A DNA stretch of 48,048 nt from a virus. Made by a program: the position numbers and the translations under genes. The notes below the pieces were generated by a model, which did not search any database, was not told the DNA's origin, and saw only the letters and a program-made list of their open reading frames with translations. Positions 299-42,712 of the stretch are shown piece by piece. Every line of letters starts with the position of its first letter. Position 1 is the first letter of the stretch. Location: the IMG/VR virus record IMGVR_UViG_3300000563_000006, positions 185 through 48,232 of that record, one strand, 5' to 3'.

Positions 299-489
299 AT
301 GTCGCTATACCTGTAAGCAGGATTCTGTCTACTCCTTTCGGAGGAGGCAATCATTTATCTATGCGACCCACCCAAGAGCTGCACGAGCATAGCTACGCTC
401 TCCTATTTGGTCTTGCTTCGAACTTTCGTCCCGCTCGTTGAAGTCCTGACTTTCCTCTTGCAATACAAGCGATTGCCCGGTATAGCTAG
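299..489 (-). ncRNA. rnpB: RNase P RNA, minimal form lacking most of the specificity domain
   Basis: The catalytic RNA of RNase P matures tRNA 5' ends. Read on the minus strand, the conserved blocks are in the right order: AGAGGAAAGTC (CR I, plus 448-458), GCAAGACCAAATAGGAG (CR IV, 400-416), AGATAAATGATTGCC (346-360) and AGACAGAATCCTGCTTACAG (CR V, 311-330). Helix P1 pairs GCTATACC (479-486) with GGTATAGC (304-311). P2 pairs GGGCAATC (471-478) with GATTGCCT (345-352). P3 is a tiny hairpin, CTTG-TATTG-CAAG (457-469). Between CR I and CR IV, where typical bacterial RNAs have a specificity domain of over 100 nt, there are only about 30 nt closed by CTTC/GAAG. The P18 hairpin is also missing. The length is about 190 nt against roughly 350-400 nt in bacteria. 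The gene abuts tRNA-Glu on the 5' side and tRNA-Arg on the 3' side. The identity is confident from the motifs; activity is an inference. Confidence 0.9.
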
Positions 490-1162: not shown

Positions 1163-2122
1163 TTATTTTATTACAACTATGGTTTTAACAGCCTTGTAAG
1201 CCCCCGCAGCCATGCGATAAAAATAAATACCAGCAGCCAGACCACGTAAATCAACATCTACTGTGTGTAAGCCTCTGTTATAATGTCCGTTCACTAACAC
1301 TACAACCCGCTTACCCAAGAAGTCATACAACTCGATAACAACCTTTTCGGACCTCCCTAGACTAAAATACACGGTCGTAACCTCTTGGGAAGGATTTGGA
1401 AAGTTTTGGTACAACCGAGTTTCAAATTTTAAGTCACTGCTCCCTACCCAAGTAGATGTAGCTTTCACGGTCACCACCGCCCCAACTACCAGCGCTACCG
1501 GCGGATCTGACTGTACAACGCTATCTGGCAGCTCAAATACCCCAACAGCATCATAATCCCCCACGACGCTCGAATCGTAATCAGCAATCGTCCACTCTAG
1601 TCTAACAATATGCGGTACATCTCGACTGTCCACCATTATTGTAGAATCTACCAACGGTACTTCAGCCGCAGGTGTCCCCCATAACACCACTACGTCGTCT
1701 ACTGGCAAAATTGAAACTACGTGGGGTGGTGGTATTGGATCTAACGCCACAATAGTAAACTCAATTACATTAGACCGCACCTCCCGCAACTCCGTATAAT
1801 TTTTTGCCCATAGATGTATATACGGGTTATGCAGCCACACTTTACTATATACCCTGTAGGTACCACCTACAACAGAAAGAAGTCCTTCGTACCTTTCTAA
1901 AGCATAGGGCCCATCCGAATGAAATTTCCCCCGTATAGCAAACGAGCTATCTGCCACCCACCCAGAGTCCGGTTCAATACTACCAACGTAGTCCACAAAA
2001 AAGTAAACAGAATCGATTACATTATTTGTCGATGGTTTAGTAATCTCAACATGAAGCGGAACATCATCTACCCCTCCGACTACTCCAAGCACCAGTGACA
2101 GCAATACAACCGCTAGTCTCAT
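1163..2122 (-). CDS. Secreted protein with C-terminal T9SS type A sorting domain
   Basis: This 319-residue protein starts with a signal peptide (MRLAVVLLSLVLGVVGG). A middle region of about 210 residues has a beta-rich look and no recognised domain. The last 80 or so residues match the type A sorting domain of the type IX secretion system: YQNFPNPS near residue 239, then TTVYFSL, VVIELYDFLGKRV and a final AAGIYFYRM with a VIK end. In the Bacteroidota group this domain directs export across the outer membrane and attachment to the surface. The gene sits between two blocks of tRNA genes on the same strand and looks richer in GC than its neighbours, which suggests recent acquisition from a host. 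No good Shine-Dalgarno site precedes the ATG. The sorting domain is confident; the role (surface alteration, exclusion of other phages) is not known. Confidence 0.85.
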   Translation of the reverse strand: MRLAVVLLSLVLGVVGGVDDVPLHVEITKPSTNNVIDSVYFFVDYVGSIEPDSGWVADSSFAIRGKFHSDGPYALERYEGLLSVVGGTYRVYSKVWLHNPYIHLWAKNYTELREVRSNVIEFTIVALDPIPPPHVVSILPVDDVVVLWGTPAAEVPLVDSTIMVDSRDVPHIVRLEWTIADYDSSVVGDYDAVGVFELPDSVVQSDPPVALVVGAVVTVKATSTWVGSSDLKFETRLYQNFPNPSQEVTTVYFSLGRSEKVVIELYDFLGKRVVVLVNGHYNRGLHTVDVDLRGLAAGIYFYRMAAGAYKAVKTIVVIK

Positions 2123-3161: not shown

Positions 3162-3434
3162 CTACTTGTCTTGGTTTTTCTCATCATAAATTTCATAACC
3201 CATTTCCCGTCTTTGCGCTACTTTTTCTTGGAACGCTTTTATTATTTCCTCATGGGGTCCGGGGCCAATCGCTGGCTTGGGTTTCTGTATAACAAAGTCG
3301 GTTCCATCAGAATCTAATGTCGTCTGTCCCCAACTTATCATTATTACGGATTTGCCATCGTTAAGTTCAATAAGATCCATATCAAAGAACTTATAGATGG
3401 ATTCCTGTTTCGCATGTTTAGCGATCATCCTCAT
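3162..3434 (-). CDS. Hypothetical protein, 90 aa
   Basis: A small soluble protein. The N-terminal half looks like beta strands (DMDLIELNDGKSVIMISWGQTT) and the C-terminal third is a charged helix (EEIIKAFQEKVAQRREMGYEI). Its start overlaps the stop of the ribonucleotide reductase gene by four bases, so the two are probably translationally coupled. No family recognised. Confidence 0.7.
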   Translation of the reverse strand: MRMIAKHAKQESIYKFFDMDLIELNDGKSVIMISWGQTTLDSDGTDFVIQKPKPAIGPGPHEEIIKAFQEKVAQRREMGYEIYDEKNQDK

Positions 3435-6400
3435 TTTTTTATCTCCGGTAATTCACATGAATCACTTTCACAGTATAAGTTTTCCGATTTACCCACATCT
3501 TCCGCTATAGGTTTAATCGGAGCTATTTTTAGTTTTTTCAACATTTTGTTATACTCTTCTTCAGTAATTGTTATATAAGGAGCCTGTTTATACCCGTGCT
3601 CTAGGATCGGCAAAAAGCTAACCGATTTTAATCGAGTCTCGTACAACTGCAAAGCTTCATTTATTTCTTTGGCTTCTTGCGGCTTAAATGTAACTGTTAT
3701 ACTGACAGAGTTATCTGACCAGTAATATTGCATTTGAGCTGCATTTTCCAATTGTTCCCATATTGTAATTTCATCTTTACCTTTGATAAAGTTATCTTCC
3801 TTTATAGGAAAACTAATAACAGAAGTTCCTGGTGAATAAATGTCTGCTTCTACGGGATAACCCGCATTCTCATATACCTTTACTAAAGGATTATTAGAAG
3901 CAATACGAACGTTTCTTATATAATATTCTGAGTGTGGGTAGTGTATCCCTGGAGTAACTCCAGGAAGTAAACTGACAGTACCAGATGGTTTGACAGTTGA
4001 TAGTTTTATTGACCGCGGTATACACAACCAATCAGAATATTGTTTATCTAAAGATTTTAAATATTCGTATCCTTCGTCTGCCCAACCCAATGTTTTTCGT
4101 TTTCCAAACTTACGAAAGGCTTGAGTTATGCCTGTTAAGCTTGTACCTATTCTACGATTACGCATCATAACTGCGTTGACACGCTCATCGTGGGTTGGAA
4201 TTAGTGTTACTGTTTTCGCATATAAGTATGCATATTTCAATGTAGTTTTTAGATCCTCATAAGAACTATGATTTGGTAACATTACTTCTACTAAATTGCA
4301 AAGCTCAAATGACTCTAGGGATTGCTCCCCACAATTGGCCACATTAATGCCAGTATATTCGTAATTTCCACTATCATGTTTTTTTTGATTCACTATAGCT
4401 ACAGTATGATTATCATCTACTGTAATATTATAGACTGTATGTAACCCATCTAAATATTCTATAGATTTTACTCGCGCATTATAATTTTCTGCAGCTTGTT
4501 TTAGTTCTTTATATTCTTTAAAAGAATTTTTAGATCCAGCGAATCTTATGGGAACTTTTTGCTTTTTACATTCGGATTCCCATTCGGTTTTTAAAGGATC
4601 TTTTTGTAATTTATATTTTAGGTCAGAATATACACGTAATTGTTCTATCTTTGTTTTTTCGATATTTTTTCTAAGTACTTCTTTCTGCCGCTTAAATCGT
4701 TTCTGATATACTATGGCATTTTCTTTAGAATTCAGATATTTATTAGAACATGCTGTACTACAGAAAGCTTGTTCACGGCTTTGATAGTTTATGTAGAAAT
4801 TATTTTTACAAATTTCACAAGCTCTTTCAACAAATACCTTTTCATCCTCAATTTTTGCAGTATATCCCTGTTCTAATGCTTTTTGGTATAATCTTAGGGT
4901 TCTAGGATCTAAATCCTGATTTTCAAAACCACATTCATTTGCGGCCCAGAGAGCTAATTGCTTTTCGGAACCTAAACTATCTCTTCTAAATTTCGAAAAT
5001 TGTGAAGGAATTCCAATTTCTTTCGCAAATTGGTTCCATTCTTTTACGCTAAATTTACGTCCCAAAGATTTGGTTAATTCCAGTGCATACTTCTTTAAAT
5101 CATCATTCGAATATCCAGAAAATCTTCCATTTTTGCTACCTTGAGTATCTACCTGAGCGTGCAATTTTGTATGCTCTTTAAATGACATGATTTCTAAATT
5201 TTCGGGAGAATTATTCAATGAATCATAGTCTTTATGGTGTACAGCAAGTCCGCCTTTAATCCAACCATTTTCTTGTTCTTTTTTATATTTTTGATTCCAT
5301 TCTTCGGGATAAAAATATTTTGTAATAATACGATGCTCGAAAATGCGACTATTTTTTGGATTATTAGCATCCAAATGTAGTAGGTAATATAATTTACTAT
5401 CTTTACTGGTTTTCGCTAATCGCTTTTTAAACGGAGATAAACTATCCCCAGGCTGTAAATCTTTTGCCTCAACTTCAACTCCATCCTTTTTGATAAATTT
5501 ATGATTCGGAGTTACATCAAAATAGTTATCGTCGGTTAAATGAACTCTAATTAATTTTTGAGCTGTTCCAGTTATTCTTGGATTTCTTCCCATTTTAATT
5601 GAAATTAATCCTGTTGTCTTATTTAAGGAATATACTGGAACGTCTTTTTCTTCCTTTGCTAATTGTTCTATACTAACTGCATTTCTACCGTCTGCTACTG
5701 CTATTAATGTGTCTTTCGCGTAACATGGATTGAATCCCATGACCCTTCGGTCTTTCCAATTCTCTCCATCTTTTAATCGTCCATATCTTCGTGCGTTATC
5801 TAACCATACATACCCGGGTTCTCCATTAACCGCAGTATCTTGTGCAAATACAGAATAATCTATGCCAACTTTAACAGCTATTGAATTATTACTGGCCCAT
5901 CTATGATGACTTAGTTTATATTCGTTTTGTTTTAACTTTATAAACTCATTATCAAAGGGTGAGCCAATCATTAGCTCTGCAGCTCGCCGCGTATTACCGG
6001 CTACAACGCAACGCCCAATTAGATTAAATATATCAACTATCTGAGTAGAAGATATTTCATATGGCTCAAATTCCTTTATTAAAGAACTGATATCCATGAC
6101 GTCTTCTTTGGGATAGTTCTCTTTAAATCGATTATCGGTTTTACATAACACTTTTATTACATCGTCAACCAAAGCTTTTAAAGGGCCTGGTCCAGATGAG
6201 GTTCCCCCGAAGGTTTTAATTGGTTCGCCCTCAGCACGTATCCTTGAAAAGTCTACTAGCTTGGGAAGTTGCTTTCCTAGAAATGATTCTAGTAAAATTT
6301 CCAATAAAGAAACCCAACTTTCGCGTGTATCTTCTACAACGAAAGTACCATCAATTAGTTTCGGAGGACGGATTGTTACTTTCCCAGCACCTTCCGTATC

Positions 6401-7804
6401 AGCACCAACGCCCACTCCTAACATCATGAAATCCATCATATACGTAAAGGGAGCGGAGAAACTAGTATCTAGCTCGTTTGTGCTTACGAATCCACAATTT
6501 GAAGTTAATATATTATCGGCTAAAGTAAACGCATGTTTTTCAGGAACAATAGCACAAAATACTTCTTCTATTTGATTAGTTTTTTCAACTGACTTTACCG
6601 ACCAATACTGATATTGATCCGTATAGTTTTTTATAAACGATTTTTTATGATGATCGAGTAAAAAGAAATCTTCAGATAAATGTTGCCTCATCAGTTTAAT
6701 AGAATAGCAAGTGTGATTTCTTCCTGTTAAATTAGATTTTCTTGTTTCTGAAATAATTGAATAAGTACCTATTCCCAGAATAGAGCATACTTCTCTAATA
6801 AATAGTATGTTTTCTTTATTATAAGAGTCTATCTCAGGAGATCCACTGCTACAATTTCCATCTGCAGCAAAATAACCTATTAACCACCCATATAAATATG
6901 ACTTGGTTTCATTTATATTAGGTAACTTTTTAAAATAATTGGGTAATCCAGTTATTTTAATATTTAAACCAGATGATTTTTGAGATTCGTTATTATTGAA
7001 GTATTTCTTTAAACATGCATTTTCCTCCCCACAAAGAATTATGTGGTTAGAATTTTTTTGTCCTGGAACTTGAGACCCATCTCCAAAAGAAATGCCGTGC
7101 GCTATCCCAAACGTAGACGGAGTTATATTTTTGATACCTTGTCCAAATGCATATCTTAATCTATGCTTTTCTGGGCGCAAATCTTTAGTTTTAACTCTTA
7201 TCCACTTGTTTGATTTTCTATATGGATTACGCCTGTCTTTTGTAAACCACTCATGGTCTTCGGTAGTATATATAATTTTTTCTACTCCAGATCTAGTAAG
7301 AGTTAATTTCCATAACGTTTGGTTTCCAAAAGATTTTATGGGAGCGGCAATCCATTGCCCATTTTCACTTAGTAGTTCAGCACTACTTCCGGCTAGATCT
7401 CCGATCTTTTTAATTCCTTCAGATGTAATTATCTCAGTATTATACTGAAAACAATTATTTAAAGCCCCAGAGCCTTTAGCACGTATTAGAGGTAAATGCA
7501 TGGCCCATAAACCACGGCCAGGCGGTAGGAACTTAAATTCCCACATACGTCTATACATTTCTTGCGCGCTCTTCTGCGCCTTATGCGCGTTCCACGGAAG
7601 CTTGTATTTATCACAATGTTCTCGTTGAATAGTGTACGCAGCTTCTACTACTCGTTGTAGCGTCTGATGAAACTCTTCTGAGTGTCCATTGTCTTTTCTA
7701 GAATATGTTCGTTTATAAACCATGTAACCTAAAGGCCCCCATTTAGGTTGGGAGCCTTCAAATTCTTTTAAAAAATTATTAGATAGTTTGAATTCTACTG
7801 CCAT
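3431..7804 (-). CDS. nrdJ: Class II (B12-dependent) ribonucleotide reductase, interrupted by two inteins
   Basis: This enzyme makes deoxyribonucleotides using adenosylcobalamin. The 1457-residue precursor contains 674 residues of reductase once inteins at residues 118-436 and 694-1157 are removed, close to the roughly 740 residues of the monomeric Lactobacillus-type enzyme. Visible landmarks are PPGRGLWAM near residue 94, ALNN-CGFVST at the first splice junction (a catalytic cysteine), NP-CGEQSLE at the second junction (the second active-site cysteine with its Glu), a triphosphate-type loop KPSGTVSLLPGVTPG, and a C-terminal redox pair CESDSC. Both inteins begin with Cys, end with Asn and are followed by Cys. 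It is followed by a four-base overlap with the next small gene. The dUTPase lies just upstream, completing a nucleotide supply group. Confidence 0.95.
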   Translation of the reverse strand: MAVEFKLSNNFLKEFEGSQPKWGPLGYMVYKRTYSRKDNGHSEEFHQTLQRVVEAAYTIQREHCDKYKLPWNAHKAQKSAQEMYRRMWEFKFLPPGRGLWAMHLPLIRAKGSGALNNCFQYNTEIITSEGIKKIGDLAGSSAELLSENGQWIAAPIKSFGNQTLWKLTLTRSGVEKIIYTTEDHEWFTKDRRNPYRKSNKWIRVKTKDLRPEKHRLRYAFGQGIKNITPSTFGIAHGISFGDGSQVPGQKNSNHIILCGEENACLKKYFNNNESQKSSGLNIKITGLPNYFKKLPNINETKSYLYGWLIGYFAADGNCSSGSPEIDSYNKENILFIREVCSILGIGTYSIISETRKSNLTGRNHTCYSIKLMRQHLSEDFFLLDHHKKSFIKNYTDQYQYWSVKSVEKTNQIEEVFCAIVPEKHAFTLADNILTSNCGFVSTNELDTSFSAPFTYMMDFMMLGVGVGADTEGAGKVTIRPPKLIDGTFVVEDTRESWVSLLEILLESFLGKQLPKLVDFSRIRAEGEPIKTFGGTSSGPGPLKALVDDVIKVLCKTDNRFKENYPKEDVMDISSLIKEFEPYEISSTQIVDIFNLIGRCVVAGNTRRAAELMIGSPFDNEFIKLKQNEYKLSHHRWASNNSIAVKVGIDYSVFAQDTAVNGEPGYVWLDNARRYGRLKDGENWKDRRVMGFNPCYAKDTLIAVADGRNAVSIEQLAKEEKDVPVYSLNKTTGLISIKMGRNPRITGTAQKLIRVHLTDDNYFDVTPNHKFIKKDGVEVEAKDLQPGDSLSPFKKRLAKTSKDSKLYYLLHLDANNPKNSRIFEHRIITKYFYPEEWNQKYKKEQENGWIKGGLAVHHKDYDSLNNSPENLEIMSFKEHTKLHAQVDTQGSKNGRFSGYSNDDLKKYALELTKSLGRKFSVKEWNQFAKEIGIPSQFSKFRRDSLGSEKQLALWAANECGFENQDLDPRTLRLYQKALEQGYTAKIEDEKVFVERACEICKNNFYINYQSREQAFCSTACSNKYLNSKENAIVYQKRFKRQKEVLRKNIEKTKIEQLRVYSDLKYKLQKDPLKTEWESECKKQKVPIRFAGSKNSFKEYKELKQAAENYNARVKSIEYLDGLHTVYNITVDDNHTVAIVNQKKHDSGNYEYTGINVANCGEQSLESFELCNLVEVMLPNHSSYEDLKTTLKYAYLYAKTVTLIPTHDERVNAVMMRNRRIGTSLTGITQAFRKFGKRKTLGWADEGYEYLKSLDKQYSDWLCIPRSIKLSTVKPSGTVSLLPGVTPGIHYPHSEYYIRNVRIASNNPLVKVYENAGYPVEADIYSPGTSVISFPIKEDNFIKGKDEITIWEQLENAAQMQYYWSDNSVSITVTFKPQEAKEINEALQLYETRLKSVSFLPILEHGYKQAPYITITEEEYNKMLKKLKIAPIKPIAEDVGKSENLYCESDSCELPEIKK
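4334..5725 (-). mobile_element. Intein 2 of the reductase, with HNH endonuclease and zinc-finger region
   Basis: Residues 694-1157 of the precursor (464 aa) lie exactly between NP and CGEQ. The splicing start is CYAKDTLIAVADGR, a block B-like segment is DVTPNHKFIKKDG, and the end is YTGINVAN followed by Cys. The insert has an HNH motif, HHKDYDSLNNSPENLEIMS, at about residues 856-874, and two cysteine pairs (CEIC near 996 and CSTAC near 1015) that suggest a zinc-binding module. Homing by HNH differs from the LAGLIDADG type of intein 1, so the two inteins have separate origins. Confidence 0.92.
6497..7453 (-). mobile_element. Intein 1 of the reductase, with LAGLIDADG endonuclease
   Basis: Residues 118-436 (319 aa) start with CFQYNTEIITSEG and end NILTSN before Cys. 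Two LAGLIDADG-like helices are visible, GIAHGISFGDGS (about 233-244) and YGWLIGYFAADG (about 305-316). A block B-like TEDHEWF and a block F-like VFCAIVPEKHAFTLADN are in place. The penultimate residue is Ser rather than the usual His, which is seen in some active inteins but may slow splicing. Confidence 0.92.
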
Positions 7805-13346: not shown

Positions 13347-13660
13347 GTTGCCAAGGTATCATTTACTAGAACAACCATCTTGTCCACAGCGAACAGTTGG
13401 TTCATAGGCGCGTCAATTAATTCTAAAGGTTTTTGGTTCTTAATCGCGAATTTGGCCAATGCTTTAATAGTGCCTAATTTGGTGTCTCTACCGACTCGAA
13501 ATTTAATCTTATCGTCATGGAGTTCAAATATAATACTTTTATCATCGGCTACGTAGACCTTGGCTTTTTTATAAGGCTGAGACTCGTCAAGCTGAGCCTT
13601 ATCCATTTCTTGTCCTCTTAAAGTATAAACTGATTTCTTCCATGTTACGTGGCGGATCAT
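13343..13660 (-). CDS. Hypothetical protein, 105 aa
   Basis: A soluble protein beginning MIRHVTWKKSVYTL. The middle is beta-rich (KAKVYVADDKSIIFELHDDKIKFRVG is the visible strand pattern, residues about 33-58), followed by a helix LGTIKALAKFAIK and a C-terminal VDKMVVLVNDTLAT. It overlaps the metallo-beta-lactamase-like gene by four bases. No family recognised. Confidence 0.7.
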   Translation of the reverse strand: MIRHVTWKKSVYTLRGQEMDKAQLDESQPYKKAKVYVADDKSIIFELHDDKIKFRVGRDTKLGTIKALAKFAIKNQKPLELIDAPMNQLFAVDKMVVLVNDTLAT

Positions 13661-14397
13661 ACTTCTACCTCTAGCCCTTCGGAGGCTATTATAAACTTAC
13701 GGTTATCAAATGCTGTTTTTAAATGGCCCTCTAATACTTCAGGGCGGTTAGTTCTTGGAGATAGGTGTCCTAAAATAATAGATTTTTTAGCATCCAGATC
13801 CACTGACTGCAAGTATTCTACTACTTGACGATTACTCAAATGACCGAAGTTACTAGTTATTCGTTCTTTCAGTAGTTGGTCATAATGTTCATATTCCCTT
13901 AATAGTTTTTCATCGTAGTCAGTTTCTATGATTAAAGAATCGCAGTCCCTTAGTGCGTTTTCAATTACTTTACTAATACTTCCAGTATCGGTTAATATGC
14001 CAAGCTTAGTATTCTCATCACTGATAACAAACCCCAAAGAGTATATGCTATCGTGTTTGGTACTGAATGGTGTAATCTCCATTGACCCAACGCTTATTGT
14101 GGTGCCTTCTATAAGGTCTTGTATACGTGGGTCATCTTTTAATTCCGGGAATTTTTGCTCGACTATTCGTGAGTTTATATATATTCTAGATAGGTCAGTC
14201 TTTTTCATTAGTGGCTTCATGCCTTTGATATGATCCGAGTGCTCATGACTTATGAACAACGCATCAAAGGATTTTCTACCAGCTATTTCGATAGTCTTTT
14301 TGGCAGATAATCCGGCATCCACTAGAATATGTGTATCATTATTAAATATATAAGTAGAGTTCCCAGAAGAACTCGAACCTATAATTCGAATTTTCAT
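13657..14397 (-). CDS. Metallo-beta-lactamase-fold hydrolase (YycJ-like)
   Basis: A 246-residue protein with a typical start (MKIRIIGSSSSGNSTYI), the metal-binding motif SHEHSDHIKG, a later ILTDTGS with the bridging Asp, and LGHLSPRTNRPE near the end. The serine-rich GSSSSGNS start and overall length match the YycJ/WalJ group, which includes 5'-3' exonucleases acting in DNA repair. A nuclease role fits the neighbouring recombination genes but is not proven. Confidence 0.87.
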   Translation of the reverse strand: MKIRIIGSSSSGNSTYIFNNDTHILVDAGLSAKKTIEIAGRKSFDALFISHEHSDHIKGMKPLMKKTDLSRIYINSRIVEQKFPELKDDPRIQDLIEGTTISVGSMEITPFSTKHDSIYSLGFVISDENTKLGILTDTGSISKVIENALRDCDSLIIETDYDEKLLREYEHYDQLLKERITSNFGHLSNRQVVEYLQSVDLDAKKSIILGHLSPRTNRPEVLEGHLKTAFDNRKFIIASEGLEVEV

Positions 14398-14693: not shown

Positions 14694-15088
14694 ATATTAT
14701 TGGCAGATATCCTTATTTCTTCCCAGCGGACTTTTCCCTCCTCGATCTGTTTTTTAATTTTGGTTTGTTTAGTAGAAAGTTTTGAGTTACCAGTCTTAAC
14801 TTCTAAAAAGATCACCTCTTCATCCTCGAATACTACGAAGTCCACTGGCCTCCCAAGAAAGTGCGAATCATTGACATTATACGGATAGTCCTTCATAAAA
14901 GGTATGAAGTGTTCTACCGCCATTCCGTGTTTACTTTCAACGGAACGTTTTTTGCTTCGCAGTTCCTTAATTTCATCCTGTAGTGCGTTGGCCCGTATGG
15001 ATAGTCTTTTCAATCGAACTAATGAATAGATCAACGTACCGATACAGGTTAGAATTAATATAATAAATAATATGGCTACTAGGTCCAA
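14690..15088 (-). CDS. Membrane-anchored Holliday-junction-resolvase-related endonuclease
   Basis: A single N-terminal membrane helix (LVAILFIILILTCIGTLIYS) and a coiled-coil linker (about residues 30-50) precede a nuclease-like domain: LGRPVDFVVFEDEEVIFLEV, then KTGNSKLSTKQTKIK and VRWEEIRI. The D...E-x-K arrangement matches the Endonuc_Holl family of predicted endonucleases related to archaeal Holliday junction resolvases. It would sit at the inner membrane with the nuclease in the cytoplasm. It overlaps the CCA-enzyme-like gene by ten bases. Being membrane-bound, it may act on incoming DNA rather than in recombination. Confidence 0.8.
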   Translation of the reverse strand: MDLVAILFIILILTCIGTLIYSLVRLKRLSIRANALQDEIKELRSKKRSVESKHGMAVEHFIPFMKDYPYNVNDSHFLGRPVDFVVFEDEEVIFLEVKTGNSKLSTKQTKIKKQIEEGKVRWEEIRISANNI

Positions 15089-16164
15089 TCTTCTAGTTCC
15101 TTTCGTATTTTTCGTTTGAGGTTAATCACCTTTTTCATGCTAATTTTGTTTGGGCTTCCTTGGCGATCCGCCTCTCTTACCTTTAACAGGTCCCATATAT
15201 GCTCAGCCCCAACTCTTTTAATCAGCCTTCTAACTCCGCGGCTAGTCATTTTAGGATCAATATCAAACATATGATGTTTAACCAAATGACTAACCTTATC
15301 GACCAGTTCGGGATTGAATTTTAGATCCGTTAAGGTTTTTCGAGCTATTTCGGCACCGGTGACTTCGTGCCCAAAAAAGTGAATCTGTCCCGATGAAGTT
15401 ATCTGCATGGTGTCCGCTTTCCCGATATCATGAAATAATATGGTAAGGCGTATAGCCAAATCAGTTGGTGTATTATCTAACGCATACATAGTGTGATCAA
15501 AAACGTTAGTAACGCCATCTCGTTTGCTCTGCACCACAGAGTCGCTGAAATGTAACTTGGGGATAATGTACTCTAATAGTCCAGAATCTTTTAACATTTT
15601 AATCCCTGCGGAAGGTTTTTCCGACATAACTATTTTAATCAGTTCATCCCGTATATATTCTGGGCTTACGGATTGCACTAAACTAGCGTAATCGTAAATT
15701 AATATCCAAGTATCGGTATTTAAAACAAACCCTAGTTGTGAAGCTAGACTAACAGCTCTGAGCATTAATTCCGGATTGCTTAAAAAGAGTTTGCGATCAT
15801 TGATCTTTATCAATCTTTGCCTGATATCCGAAAGCCCTCTCATGGGGTCGTGTATCTCAGAGTTAAGCGTTCCGACTGCTATAGAATCTATTGAAAAGTC
15901 CCTAGAGGTTAAGTACCCATATAAATCATTTCCACAATCTATAAATTTATGGTTTTCCTTATTTATAGTAATAAGCTTAGGATAGTTTTTGCCTAGGACT
16001 TTCTCCAGATGTTCATGCGTTGAAACGTTAGTGTCATTGACTATTAATACATCATAATAATCAATGGGCATTGATAAAACCTTGTAATAAATACAACTAC
16101 CAGAGTAGTACGTTTTGATTCCCAGATCATTTAATTTTTCAAATACTTTATTATGTGAATTCAT
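15079..16164 (-). CDS. tRNA nucleotidyltransferase (CCA-adding)-like protein with HD domain
   Basis: A 361-residue protein in the layout of bacterial CCA-adding/poly(A) polymerases with a C-terminal HD domain. The second half of the head domain is clear: RDFSIDSIAVGTL (88-100), HDPMRGLSDIRQRLIKI (105-121), then NPELMLRAVSLASQLGF (130-146). The HD domain has LFHDIGKAD (243-251) and FFGHEVTGAEIA (263 on). The first catalytic segment is degenerate: where the family has GG...RD and D-x-D, this has SGSCIYYKVLSMPIDYYDVLI, so catalytic capacity is uncertain. The phage tRNAs lack an encoded CCA, so such an activity would have a use. It could instead be an HD phosphohydrolase only. Confidence 0.75.
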   Translation of the reverse strand: MNSHNKVFEKLNDLGIKTYYSGSCIYYKVLSMPIDYYDVLIVNDTNVSTHEHLEKVLGKNYPKLITINKENHKFIDCGNDLYGYLTSRDFSIDSIAVGTLNSEIHDPMRGLSDIRQRLIKINDRKLFLSNPELMLRAVSLASQLGFVLNTDTWILIYDYASLVQSVSPEYIRDELIKIVMSEKPSAGIKMLKDSGLLEYIIPKLHFSDSVVQSKRDGVTNVFDHTMYALDNTPTDLAIRLTILFHDIGKADTMQITSSGQIHFFGHEVTGAEIARKTLTDLKFNPELVDKVSHLVKHHMFDIDPKMTSRGVRRLIKRVGAEHIWDLLKVREADRQGSPNKISMKKVINLKRKIRKELEDWT

Positions 16165-39844: not shown

Positions 39845-42712
39845 ATGCCAAATACATTAGGACGTGAGTTCCTTAACGTGGCCCCAGCGGAACGTTATGG
39901 AACCAGATTGAATTATCCAAATCCGTTTTTCGACCTGTCTAGGCTATACTACCCGAAAACAGTTAAACATTTATTTCGTATATGTAAAATATTCTTTTAC
40001 AAAAACGAATTTATACACAATGTAATATTTAAGCTCGCAGAGTATCCAGTCACAGATTTTATATTCGAGGGAGCAAATGACCCTGGAATACAAAGCGAAT
40101 ACGTGGAGCTATTTAACTACCATTTAAAACTGAAATCATTTTTAATTGAAGTTGGTCTGGATTATTTTACCTATGGTAACGCAATTATATCGGCCAACAT
40201 GAAATTTAAAAGATTCTTGAAGTGCACTGAGTGTGGATTCGAGAATCCAATAGAGCAGACTAAATATAAATTTACTAACTATAACTTTGTGGGTAAATGT
40301 GAAAAATGTGGTCGTGAAGCCGTAACCTTTAAAATACAAGATCATTATTCAAAAAGCCCTAAAGCTTTAAAATTCATACGTTGGAATCCAGAAAGTATCG
40401 ACATAGAGTACGACGAACTAACGGGAGATAGTAAATACTATTATACAATACATCCGCGTATACGTAAGGCTATAAACGCTGGTAGAAAACCTGTTCTAGA
40501 GACAACTCCTGCGATCTTTATTGAGGCGCTGAAATCCGGAAAACGAATTGAACTAGATCCCGGTAACCTATATCACTTTAAACGACCTACACTGGCCGAA
40601 GAAGATATGGGGTGGGGTAAACCTCTTATACTTCCAGCTATACCAATGCTTTGGTACCTACAAACGCTACGACGAGGTAACGAGGCTATTGTTGCGGACC
40701 ACTTAGTTCCTATGAGAAGTGTGTTCCCAAGTAGTCAAGGCACAATTGATCCATACTGTTTAGATGTAGATTCTTTTATATTAACTAAAGACGGAATAAA
40801 ACAGGCTGGAGAGTTAACTAAAAACGATATTCTTATAACCGAAAACCATAAATATACTAAAATAAAAGAGTTAAAATTTGAATTAGCTCAGAATTTATAC
40901 AAAATACATATTCATGGATTATCCAGTTTTAATCCCACGGCAACTAACGTGCATCCTTTTAGGGTGTACGATACTCAAGAAATAAAGTGGAAGTCCGCTA
41001 GTGAGTTGACAACGGACGATTTAATTGTTTATCCACGCAAAAAAATTAAAAATCTTCCTACTAAATATTTACTAACAAAAAATCTTTTAGGAGAGCAGCT
41101 AAGAAAATGCAAACATAATCTACCTGAAAAAATTGAGTTAACGAATGAAGTGTTACAATTATTTGGGCTATATTTAGCTGAGGGATGTTCTTATGAAACT
41201 GGTAAAGTAGAATTTGCGTTTCATACAAAAGAGCAAAATTATTATCAACTAATTAAAAAAATTCTTGATTCCTGGTTACCTGAATCTGAATCAAAAGTGT
41301 ATACTCGTGGTAATTCAACTTCAGTCGCTAAATACAGCGTTTATTTACAGAAAATGTTCTCTAACTTATTGGGTAATAAATGCACATGCAAAACAACAAG
41401 AAAATTACCTGAATTAAATAGATCCCAATTAATATCGCTATTAAAAGGAGTATATCAAGGAGATGGTACATTTTTCTATGAAAAAAATAAATTTCCACGA
41501 TTAGCCTTGAAGTCTATTAATCTAAATTTAATTGTCGAAATACGAGAACATCTTATTTCATTGGGGTATTATCCAACTATTGTGCGCGATAAGTCTTATT
41601 CTCATGATGGTCCGGTTGGAAAATGCTATCAATTAAAATTAACAGGATATCAAGCTGAACAATTGGCAAAAGAATTTGGATTTAAAACACAGAACAGATA
41701 CACCAAAGATTTAAATAACAGATATACTATTTATGATAATTTTATTACCGTTAAAATAAATAAAATTGAAAAAATTGAAAATGCTGTGATAGCCGCCTTT
41801 GAAGTTGAGGATGCAACAAAATCGTATTTATCTCTAGGATTTATAAATCATAATACACAAATTAACCTAGGTAAATGGAGATCGCAAGTAGAAACCCAAG
41901 TTGGTCGTTGGCGACAAGATCCAAATCATATTGGAATATTTCCAATACCTATGGGTCTACAGCAATTAGGTGGACAAGCAAAAATGCTCAACGCAACTCC
42001 GGAAATGAAGTTCCTAGAAGAAAGCATTATTAATAGTTTTGGTGTTCCTATCGAGTTCATTAAAGGTGGAAGTACCTGGACTAGCAGTTCAGTGTCATTA
42101 CGTATTGTAGAGAACCACTTCCTGCAATATCGTGAACAGCTTGCAGAGTTTTTAAACTTTTTCGTTATTCCAAAAATAAAAGGATTTCTAAAATATCCTC
42201 CGGTAAAGATACGGTTCCAGAAATTCAAAATGTCAGACGATGCACAACACAAAGAATTCTTACTAATGCTGTCACAAACTGGTAAATTAGCGGATGAATA
42301 CATACTGACTGAGTCGGGAATCGATTATGAAGAAAATAAGAGAATGCTTAAGAACCAATCACGTGATCAGGTTGATCGTCAACGCGATATGATGACGGCG
42401 GAAGCAAAAGCTCAAGCTAAAGGTATGGAACATCAAGCTAAAGGACAAGCCCGTGCACAAGAAGCGCTAATCGATGAGACCGCACGAATTCAGGAACGTA
42501 AATTCACAGAAGAGCTAATGCTTGAGATGCAAGCTCCTAATGAAGATCCTAGCAATATCATACAAAGGTATGCTATACAACTTAGCGGTATGCAGCCCAG
42601 AGAACAAGACGCTGCATTAAAAGACCTTGCCAAGTCTATGCCGTTAACATTCGGGTTTGTGATTAACCGATTAAGAAACATGATGGCAGCGGCAGGAGGT
42701 GAGCAACGATGA
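39845..42712 (+). CDS. Portal protein, interrupted by an intein
   Basis: The portal forms the dodecameric gate of the capsid. The 955-residue precursor contains 589 residues of portal after removal of the intein at residues 305-670. Landmarks are a tail-like start, a zinc-ribbon insert (CTECGFENP at 127-135 and CEKCGREA at 152-159), VGLDYFTYGNAIISANMKFK, and a C-terminal coiled region (AKGMEHQAKGQARAQEALID). The zinc ribbon inside a portal is typical of some large phages. The portal is the last large gene of the rightward block. There is an AGGAGGT site at its end serving the next small gene. Confidence 0.88.
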   Translation: MPNTLGREFLNVAPAERYGTRLNYPNPFFDLSRLYYPKTVKHLFRICKIFFYKNEFIHNVIFKLAEYPVTDFIFEGANDPGIQSEYVELFNYHLKLKSFLIEVGLDYFTYGNAIISANMKFKRFLKCTECGFENPIEQTKYKFTNYNFVGKCEKCGREAVTFKIQDHYSKSPKALKFIRWNPESIDIEYDELTGDSKYYYTIHPRIRKAINAGRKPVLETTPAIFIEALKSGKRIELDPGNLYHFKRPTLAEEDMGWGKPLILPAIPMLWYLQTLRRGNEAIVADHLVPMRSVFPSSQGTIDPYCLDVDSFILTKDGIKQAGELTKNDILITENHKYTKIKELKFELAQNLYKIHIHGLSSFNPTATNVHPFRVYDTQEIKWKSASELTTDDLIVYPRKKIKNLPTKYLLTKNLLGEQLRKCKHNLPEKIELTNEVLQLFGLYLAEGCSYETGKVEFAFHTKEQNYYQLIKKILDSWLPESESKVYTRGNSTSVAKYSVYLQKMFSNLLGNKCTCKTTRKLPELNRSQLISLLKGVYQGDGTFFYEKNKFPRLALKSINLNLIVEIREHLISLGYYPTIVRDKSYSHDGPVGKCYQLKLTGYQAEQLAKEFGFKTQNRYTKDLNNRYTIYDNFITVKINKIEKIENAVIAAFEVEDATKSYLSLGFINHNTQINLGKWRSQVETQVGRWRQDPNHIGIFPIPMGLQQLGGQAKMLNATPEMKFLEESIINSFGVPIEFIKGGSTWTSSSVSLRIVENHFLQYREQLAEFLNFFVIPKIKGFLKYPPVKIRFQKFKMSDDAQHKEFLLMLSQTGKLADEYILTESGIDYEENKRMLKNQSRDQVDRQRDMMTAEAKAQAKGMEHQAKGQARAQEALIDETARIQERKFTEELMLEMQAPNEDPSNIIQRYAIQLSGMQPREQDAALKDLAKSMPLTFGFVINRLRNMMAAAGGEQR
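40757..41854 (+). mobile_element. Portal intein with LAGLIDADG endonuclease
   Basis: Residues 305-670 (366 aa) start CLDVDSFILTKDG and end SLGFINHN, followed by Thr. The two LAGLIDADG-type helices are LFGLYLAEG (439-447) and LLKGVYQGDG (532-541). TNVHPF is a block B-like segment. The His-Asn end is intact. The first extein residue after it is Thr rather than Cys, an accepted but less common choice. Confidence 0.93.

Follow-up and report, generated by a model that had tools for sequence, protein, structure and literature searches.

A predicted class A RNase P RNA of a phage, consisting of the catalytic domain only and embedded in a tRNA gene array

RNase P RNA (RPR) is the textbook essential trans-acting ribozyme of cells. 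Can a phage bring its own, and how little of the molecule would it then need? The question is raised by positions 299–489 (minus strand) of the window, by which we mean the whole stretch of 48,048 nt analysed here: a 48,232-base linear metagenomic contig from IMG/VR minus its first 184 bases, the last of which (record position 184) is an N. The record encodes an intein-containing portal protein with about 29–30% identity to the portals of Salmonella phage Arash and Vibrio phage D181, along with a baseplate wedge protein, a class II ribonucleotide reductase (with inteins), dUTPase, RecU, a helicase and a DNA ligase. The portal alignment comprises 80 viral loci, several of them on contigs of 150–210 kb, and the record is therefore probably a fragment of a larger genome.

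The covariance evidence for an RPR is clear. On the minus strand at 298–488, cmscan matches the bacterial type A family RF00010 with 106.8 bits (E 8.7e-32; E 5.4e-33 when 3 kb were searched), above the gathering score of 100, which bears out the first-pass annotation, where a phage-encoded RNase P RNA had been proposed. The alignment spans model positions 1–367, end to end, despite deletion of the specificity (S) domain, P18 and much of P3, and among the models of the RNase P clan the best match retained is to RF00010 rather than to the archaeal T model. The conserved blocks of the catalytic (C) domain are whole: CR-I (GAGGAAAGUC), CR-IV (AGCAAG-CCAAAUAG), J15/16 (GGGU) and CR-V (ACAGAA....GCUUACAG). 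All 57 assigned pairs are canonical by script, 44 of them nested and 13 in the pseudoknots P4 and P6. A nested covariance model does not score these two pseudoknots as pairs; P4 and P6 cross the nested helices and thus provide evidence additional to the pairs that the covariance score counts. Two pairs of P4 (C-G to A-U and G-C to A-U) and one of P15 differ from the RF00010 consensus by paired changes. By minimum free energy the RNA stands out only slightly (z -1.86); the case for it is made by the covariance score and the comparative pairing, not by folding energy. Judged from its sequence, the element is a class A RPR reduced to the catalytic domain, and its lack of P8–P14, CR-II and CR-III makes it a variant of the class rather than a standard member.

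P1–P7, P15–P17 and P19 are all there, as are the bulged U in P4 and the GGU motif for CCA binding (numbering below from r1 = 489 to r191 = 299). P1 pairs GCUAUACC (479–486) with GGUAUAGC (304–311) over 8 bp (r4–11/179–186), and P2 pairs 471–477 with GAUUGCC at 346–352 over 7 bp (r13–19/138–144). P3 is a 5-bp mini-hairpin at 457–469 (r21–25/29–33); the earlier statement that the catalytic blocks are present with P1, P2 and P3 thus holds, with P3 in miniature. The segment comprising CR-I and the 5′ strand of P4 (GAGGAAAGUCAGGA, 444–457) is identical to the CR-I consensus and includes the bulged U at 449. P4 itself is formed by r38–40 and r42–46 with r168–175, leaving U41 bulged, and its 3′ strand (315–322) lies in CR-V (ACAGAAUCCUGCUUA, 314–328), as located by the RF00010 alignment and a comparison of P4. 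CR-IV (AGCAAGACCAAAUAG, 403–417) contains the 5′ strand of P15 (409–412; P15 r78–81/122–125) and is followed by the P16/P17 arm at 374–402 (P16 r88–93/111–116; P17 r97–98/108–109). The P6 pseudoknot, a type A trait absent in type B, consists of 5 bp between CGAGC at 433–437 and GCUCG at 384–388 in L17 (r53–57/102–106). GGGU at 370–373, 5′ of P15, matches the RF00010 consensus in position and sequence, and we take it, by its role in E. coli RPR, to be the motif that pairs with the tRNA 3′ RCC(A). A P19 hairpin with a GAAA loop, unmentioned in the earlier description, occupies 332–343 (r147–150/155–158).

Two parts of the standard molecule are missing. P18 is absent, as had been claimed, with 24 model positions deleted in the RF00010 alignment. 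The S domain had been described as reduced to about 30 nt; it is indeed stripped, but not merely shortened. Everything beyond P7 is gone, and positions 416–443 hold what replaces P8–P14: P5 (440–443/416–419; r47–50/71–74), J5/7, and P7 (420–431; r59–62/67–70) closed by a GAAA tetraloop.

Is this RNA alone among phages? Pattern scans combined with covariance models identified RPRs of 158–375 nt in 16 further phage-like viral records, plus one interrupted copy (on contig G084), mostly within tRNA arrays. One (L099) was found with a tight 3′-half pattern, 15 records with a looser pattern and RF00010, and one (L124) by inspection. L099 is a 297-nt RPR that keeps its specificity domain and has no P18; its contig measures 173 kb, and the 12.7 kb examined there hold 26 tRNAs. 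The looser-pattern records are contigs of up to 330 kb, five of which (including those of 243 kb and 328 kb) carry a terminase, and 10 of their 15 RPRs score below the RF00010 gathering score, but with E values of 3e-10 or better. With 316–335 bits, most RPRs from the tight pattern (L096–L098, L100–L104 and L106–L108) resemble complete bacterial ones; they were excluded, being probably host sequence on contigs that contain a prophage. A GGAAA..C.GGAC scan gave, among matches not already known as RPRs, only L124 as a real one. P4 is paired at 8/8 positions in all 16 phage RPRs compared, a set that counts the window's but neither the interrupted copy nor L124. Five of the eight positions vary, all by paired changes that include A-U/C-G/G-C exchanges; pair 3, for example, is G-C in nine, C-G in six and U-G in one. 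A same-strand tRNA lies within 20 nt of 11 of 17 phage RPRs, again counting the window's, and in nine of these 11 the following tRNA is at most 7 nt away.

Five records (L161–L164 and L124) hold a still smaller form of 158 nt, which lacks P7, P18 and P19 and has its P6 strand within the P5 loop. In four of the five a tRNA follows directly 3′, and terminase is encoded on the 243 kb and 328 kb records. Across 47 pairs of this class, 96.2% of cells are paired, and both sides change in 12 pairs (in P1, P2, P3, P4, P6 and P16), against a shuffled mean of 5.0 with none of 500 shuffles as high and 0–3 in slid controls. This covariation is support, not proof, because five related sequences are few. 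A model of the 158-nt class finds the window RNA with 62.4 bits (E 1.6e-13), and the reciprocal search with a model of the window RNA finds the class with 64.6–74.5 bits (E <= 3.1e-17). The two are alike in being phage-encoded, S-domain-free class A cores, and differ in P7, P19, the placement of the P6 strand and the phages that carry them. The window RNA fits a proposed group of phage catalytic-domain RPRs: its record is that of a phage (portal and baseplate homologues), its gene is linked to tRNAs and it has a class A core without P8–P14.

The 158-nt class bears on whether the missing S domain was simply lost in assembly. That artefact has a precedent, since three bacterial MAG hits with a short S domain proved to be scaffold gaps filled with N. 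They came from a search of 84,980 prokaryote species for CR-I followed by CR-IV within 22–52 nt, which yielded no genuine specificity-domain-free type A RPR; the pattern consists of exact motifs, which divergent cases could escape. None of the four cellular hits (L111–L114) was real: L111, read directly, and L112 and L114, with N in their alignments, are RPRs with N-filled assembly gaps, and L113 is a chance match. The phage gene, however, contains no N, its junction is a paired P7 with a tetraloop, and the 158-nt class occurs in five separate records, so we regard loss in assembly as extremely improbable.

How does the RNA compare with known RPRs? With bacterial type A (RF00010, rnpB) it shares CR-I, CR-IV, CR-V, P1–P7, P15–P17, the bulged U of P4, P6 and GGU. 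It differs in its 191 nt, against a typical 340–420 nt (PMC4919922), in lacking P8–P14, CR-II/III and P18, and in being phage-borne inside a tRNA array on a record where no RnpA gene was found. The extreme minimal size first noted, about 190 nt, is correct, but the RNA is not the smallest of its kind, with archaeal type T RPRs at 195–215 nt by coordinates (PMC7191817) and other phages at 158 nt; the window RNA falls just below the type T range and the 158-nt class clearly below it. Type T RPRs are described, in the account given in PMC4919922, from Pyrobaculum, Caldivirga and Thermoproteus (Lai et al. 2010, PMC3012483). Like the window RNA they lack P18, their S domain is missing or degenerate, and P6 is modelled as present (PMC5839562); unlike it, they work with archaeal proteins, whereas the phage RNA scores as class A. 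The resemblance is one of architecture, not kinship.

A functional analogy is found among engineered RNAs. In E. coli, the catalytic domain by itself is enough for substrate cleavage, whether or not the C5 protein is present, and in such S-less constructs P18 and the length of P3 hardly matter, whereas a P6-like contact does (PMC5839562). The phage RNA resembles the Eco CP RPR, delP18 and P3Mini constructs of that study in having a C domain, a mini-P3 and a P6-type contact and in lacking the S domain and P18; those molecules were made in the laboratory, whereas the phage RNA occurs in nature and has P19 and a P7 capped by GAAA. By this analogy it is a natural counterpart of C-domain constructs known to cleave. 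Yeast mitochondrial RPR offers a parallel in gene arrangement, being encoded by a small gene that is co-transcribed with, and flanked by, tRNA genes, and some such RPRs are even shorter than the 158-nt class. Unlike the phage RNA, however, they are mitochondrial and A/U-rich and have another protein partner.

The genomic setting suggests how the phage RNA might be made and used. ARAGORN confirms the eleven adjoining tRNA genes first noted, all on the minus strand between 37 and 2726: tRNA-Ser(GCU) and tRNA-Ser(UGA) at 37–211, tRNA-Arg(UCU) at 223–298, tRNA-Glu(UUC) at 489–565, tRNA-Gly, -Cys, -Thr and -Trp at 681–1123, and tRNA-Asn, -Gln and -Arg(ACG) at 2211–2726. The RPR fills the gap between tRNA-Glu, directly 5′, and tRNA-Arg(UCU), directly 3′, without spacer. 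The tRNA-Glu discriminator base is position 490 and its encoded C74 (with no CCA) is 489, the start of the RPR; tRNA-Arg begins at 298, and the site of its 5′ cleavage coincides with the RPR 3′ end. From this zero-spacer packing and the proximity of 11 of 17 phage RPRs to tRNA genes we infer, with good support, a part in tRNA maturation, as the first-pass annotation had suggested. Scans for promoters and terminators gave chance-level results only. RnpA (PF00825) was not found on the 48 kb record or on 29 other records, so host RnpA is the likely partner.

We consider it likely that the element functions as an RNase P RNA, is released from among the tRNAs and uses the host's RnpA to mature phage tRNAs. 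It would be transcribed together with the tRNA array and, to go by its position, freed by tRNA processing: the 3′ end by cleavage at the tRNA-Arg 5′ end, initially by host RNase P and then by the phage RNA itself, and the 5′ end by 3′ processing of tRNA-Glu. Bound to host RnpA, the RNA is predicted to cleave phage pre-tRNAs at +1, removing their 5′ leaders. It would read the substrate mainly by its acceptor stem, with GGU pairing to the 3′ N73-C74 encoded by 11/11 phage tRNA genes, and would make no use of a T-loop-binding specificity domain. The benefit to the phage might be a tRNA supply kept up under shutoff or limitation of host rnpB.

RnpA contacts lie in the C domain, and no phage RnpA was found, so a C domain that folds and binds host RnpA but hardly cleaves could act as a decoy, titrating RnpA and slowing host tRNA maturation. 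Without the S domain, E. coli RPR is about 500 times less efficient (PMC5839562); such a loss is expected to reduce activity strongly, and the phage RNA may by analogy be a poor enzyme unless a protein compensates. A decoy would, however, have no need of the active-site nucleotides and the GGU substrate motif, both of which are kept; the gene lies within tRNA arrays rather than with host-takeover genes, and the phage itself requires tRNA processing. We therefore think a decoy unlikely. Loss of the T-loop reader could alternatively have changed the specificity of the RNA toward non-tRNA substrates such as phage or host mRNAs or polycistronic spacers, and C-domain RNAs do cut small hairpins, model substrates unable to use the T-loop site (PMC5839562). 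The tight linkage to tRNA genes and the retention of GGU, which reads the tRNA 3′ end, make this distinctly improbable, and maturation of phage tRNAs remains the reading we favour.

Could the tRNAs have adapted to the RNA? C74 is encoded in 11/11 of the record's own tRNA genes, an outcome with a chance of about 2e-8 at local composition, and the full CCA in 0/11. Such a pattern fits co-adaptation to the window RPR without proving it; it is not clearly an adaptation, because C74 is equally conserved (51/53 tRNAs) in four relatives without a detected RPR (L087, L089, L091 and L093). In these phage tRNA genes the first C is almost always encoded, but CC or CCA is rare; in the relative L091, CC occurs in 13/16. 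A complete phage tRNA-maturation kit was considered and rejected, and we claim neither of two other candidate products as a tRNA-processing enzyme. The protein of 15079–16164 (minus), which belongs to the CCA-adding/poly(A) polymerase family and has an HD domain, lacks GGxxR, the nucleotidyltransferase-domain DxD and EDxxR, and by its sequence motifs is probably not a CCA-adding enzyme. The metallo-beta-lactamase protein of 13657–14397 scores 42 bits as RNase Z against a curated cut-off of 293.

Within the phage group the gene is patchy. This exact RNA occurs in one record only. RF00010 had no match in 50 related records, and the window-RNA model none in 45 of these 50, in a record search whose negatives are weak, as its first look missed L124, which scores 66 bits by direct covariance search. 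Direct covariance search of the tRNA arrays of five relatives (L087–L095, 14–32 tRNAs each) detected no RPR; the gene has thus been gained or lost in the group, and is dispensable there. Strict viral scans for GAGGAAAGTC-N95..125-ACAGAA....G.TTA and GAGGAAAGTC-N20..50-AGCAAG gave no match, with the record itself possibly left out of the scanned set, and blastn of five phage RPRs against cultured phages returned chance-level fragments or nothing. The shortness of the RNA and the seeming lack of RPRs in related phages might suggest a remnant of a host rnpB that was captured and is now decaying or without function. Yet no pair is broken and no core nucleotide lost, a clean GAAA-looped stem stands in place of the missing domain, and compensatory change is seen in an independent S-less class, all of which makes a remnant very improbable.

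Full-text literature searches, covering mostly sources outside subscription, turned up no description of an RNase P RNA encoded by a phage, the 158-nt forms included. The jumbo-phage reviews consulted, one of them from 2026, do not mention RNase P, and a paper on rnpB annotation in metagenomes does not mention phages. On balance we favour the view that large phages encode unreported, structurally diverse RPRs, freed from tRNA arrays by their own cleavage, with at least two S-less architectures (191 nt with a GAAA-capped P7, and 158 nt without P7) that would be the smallest bacterial-type RNase P ribozymes known, acting as hybrids with host RnpA. If phages do bring their own RPR, tRNA 5′ maturation joins the functions that they take over, and the reasons (host rnpB shutoff, tRNA load or changed specificity) become testable. 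Natural class A RNAs consisting of the catalytic domain only are test molecules for how little RNase P RNA suffices; they also bear on catalytic-domain-first models (PMC12974513) and offer compact scaffolds for structural and ribozyme work.

Several further observations concern these phages and their RNAs. Five RPRs of 236–293 nt (L160 and L166–L169) have a specificity domain seemingly replaced by other stems, a possible third architecture. The RPR on the 138 kb contig G084 (L165/L170) appears to be split in two by an insert whose ORF (L170, 980–1483, minus) encodes an HNH-type protein (NHKNGISNDNRPENL), possibly an intron or homing element within the RPR gene. On the 31 kb contig G083, the 158-nt RPR has a permuted, alphaproteobacterial-type tmRNA (L163, 1–221; 110 bits) about 1.3 kb upstream; this phage carries both RNAs itself, and an alphaproteobacterial host is suggested. 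In the relative L091 (180 kb contig), a match to GOLLD RNA at 13681–14091 (121 bits, E 1.7e-31, below the gathering score) adjoins tRNA-Leu within the tRNA array.

In the window, inteins are located in the class II ribonucleotide reductase (3431–7804, minus; with HNH) and at residues 305–670 of the portal protein (39845–42712, plus). Among the tRNA genes, 1163–2122 (minus) encodes a secreted-looking protein of 319 aa with a Por_Secre_tail (type IX secretion sorting) domain, suggesting that the host belongs to the Bacteroidota/FCB group. A 285-nt stretch that separates tRNA-Gln from tRNA-Asn (2284–2568, minus) matched no Rfam family and folds at -107.9 kcal/mol (z -4.06; 0/200 shuffles), making it a candidate large phage non-coding RNA.
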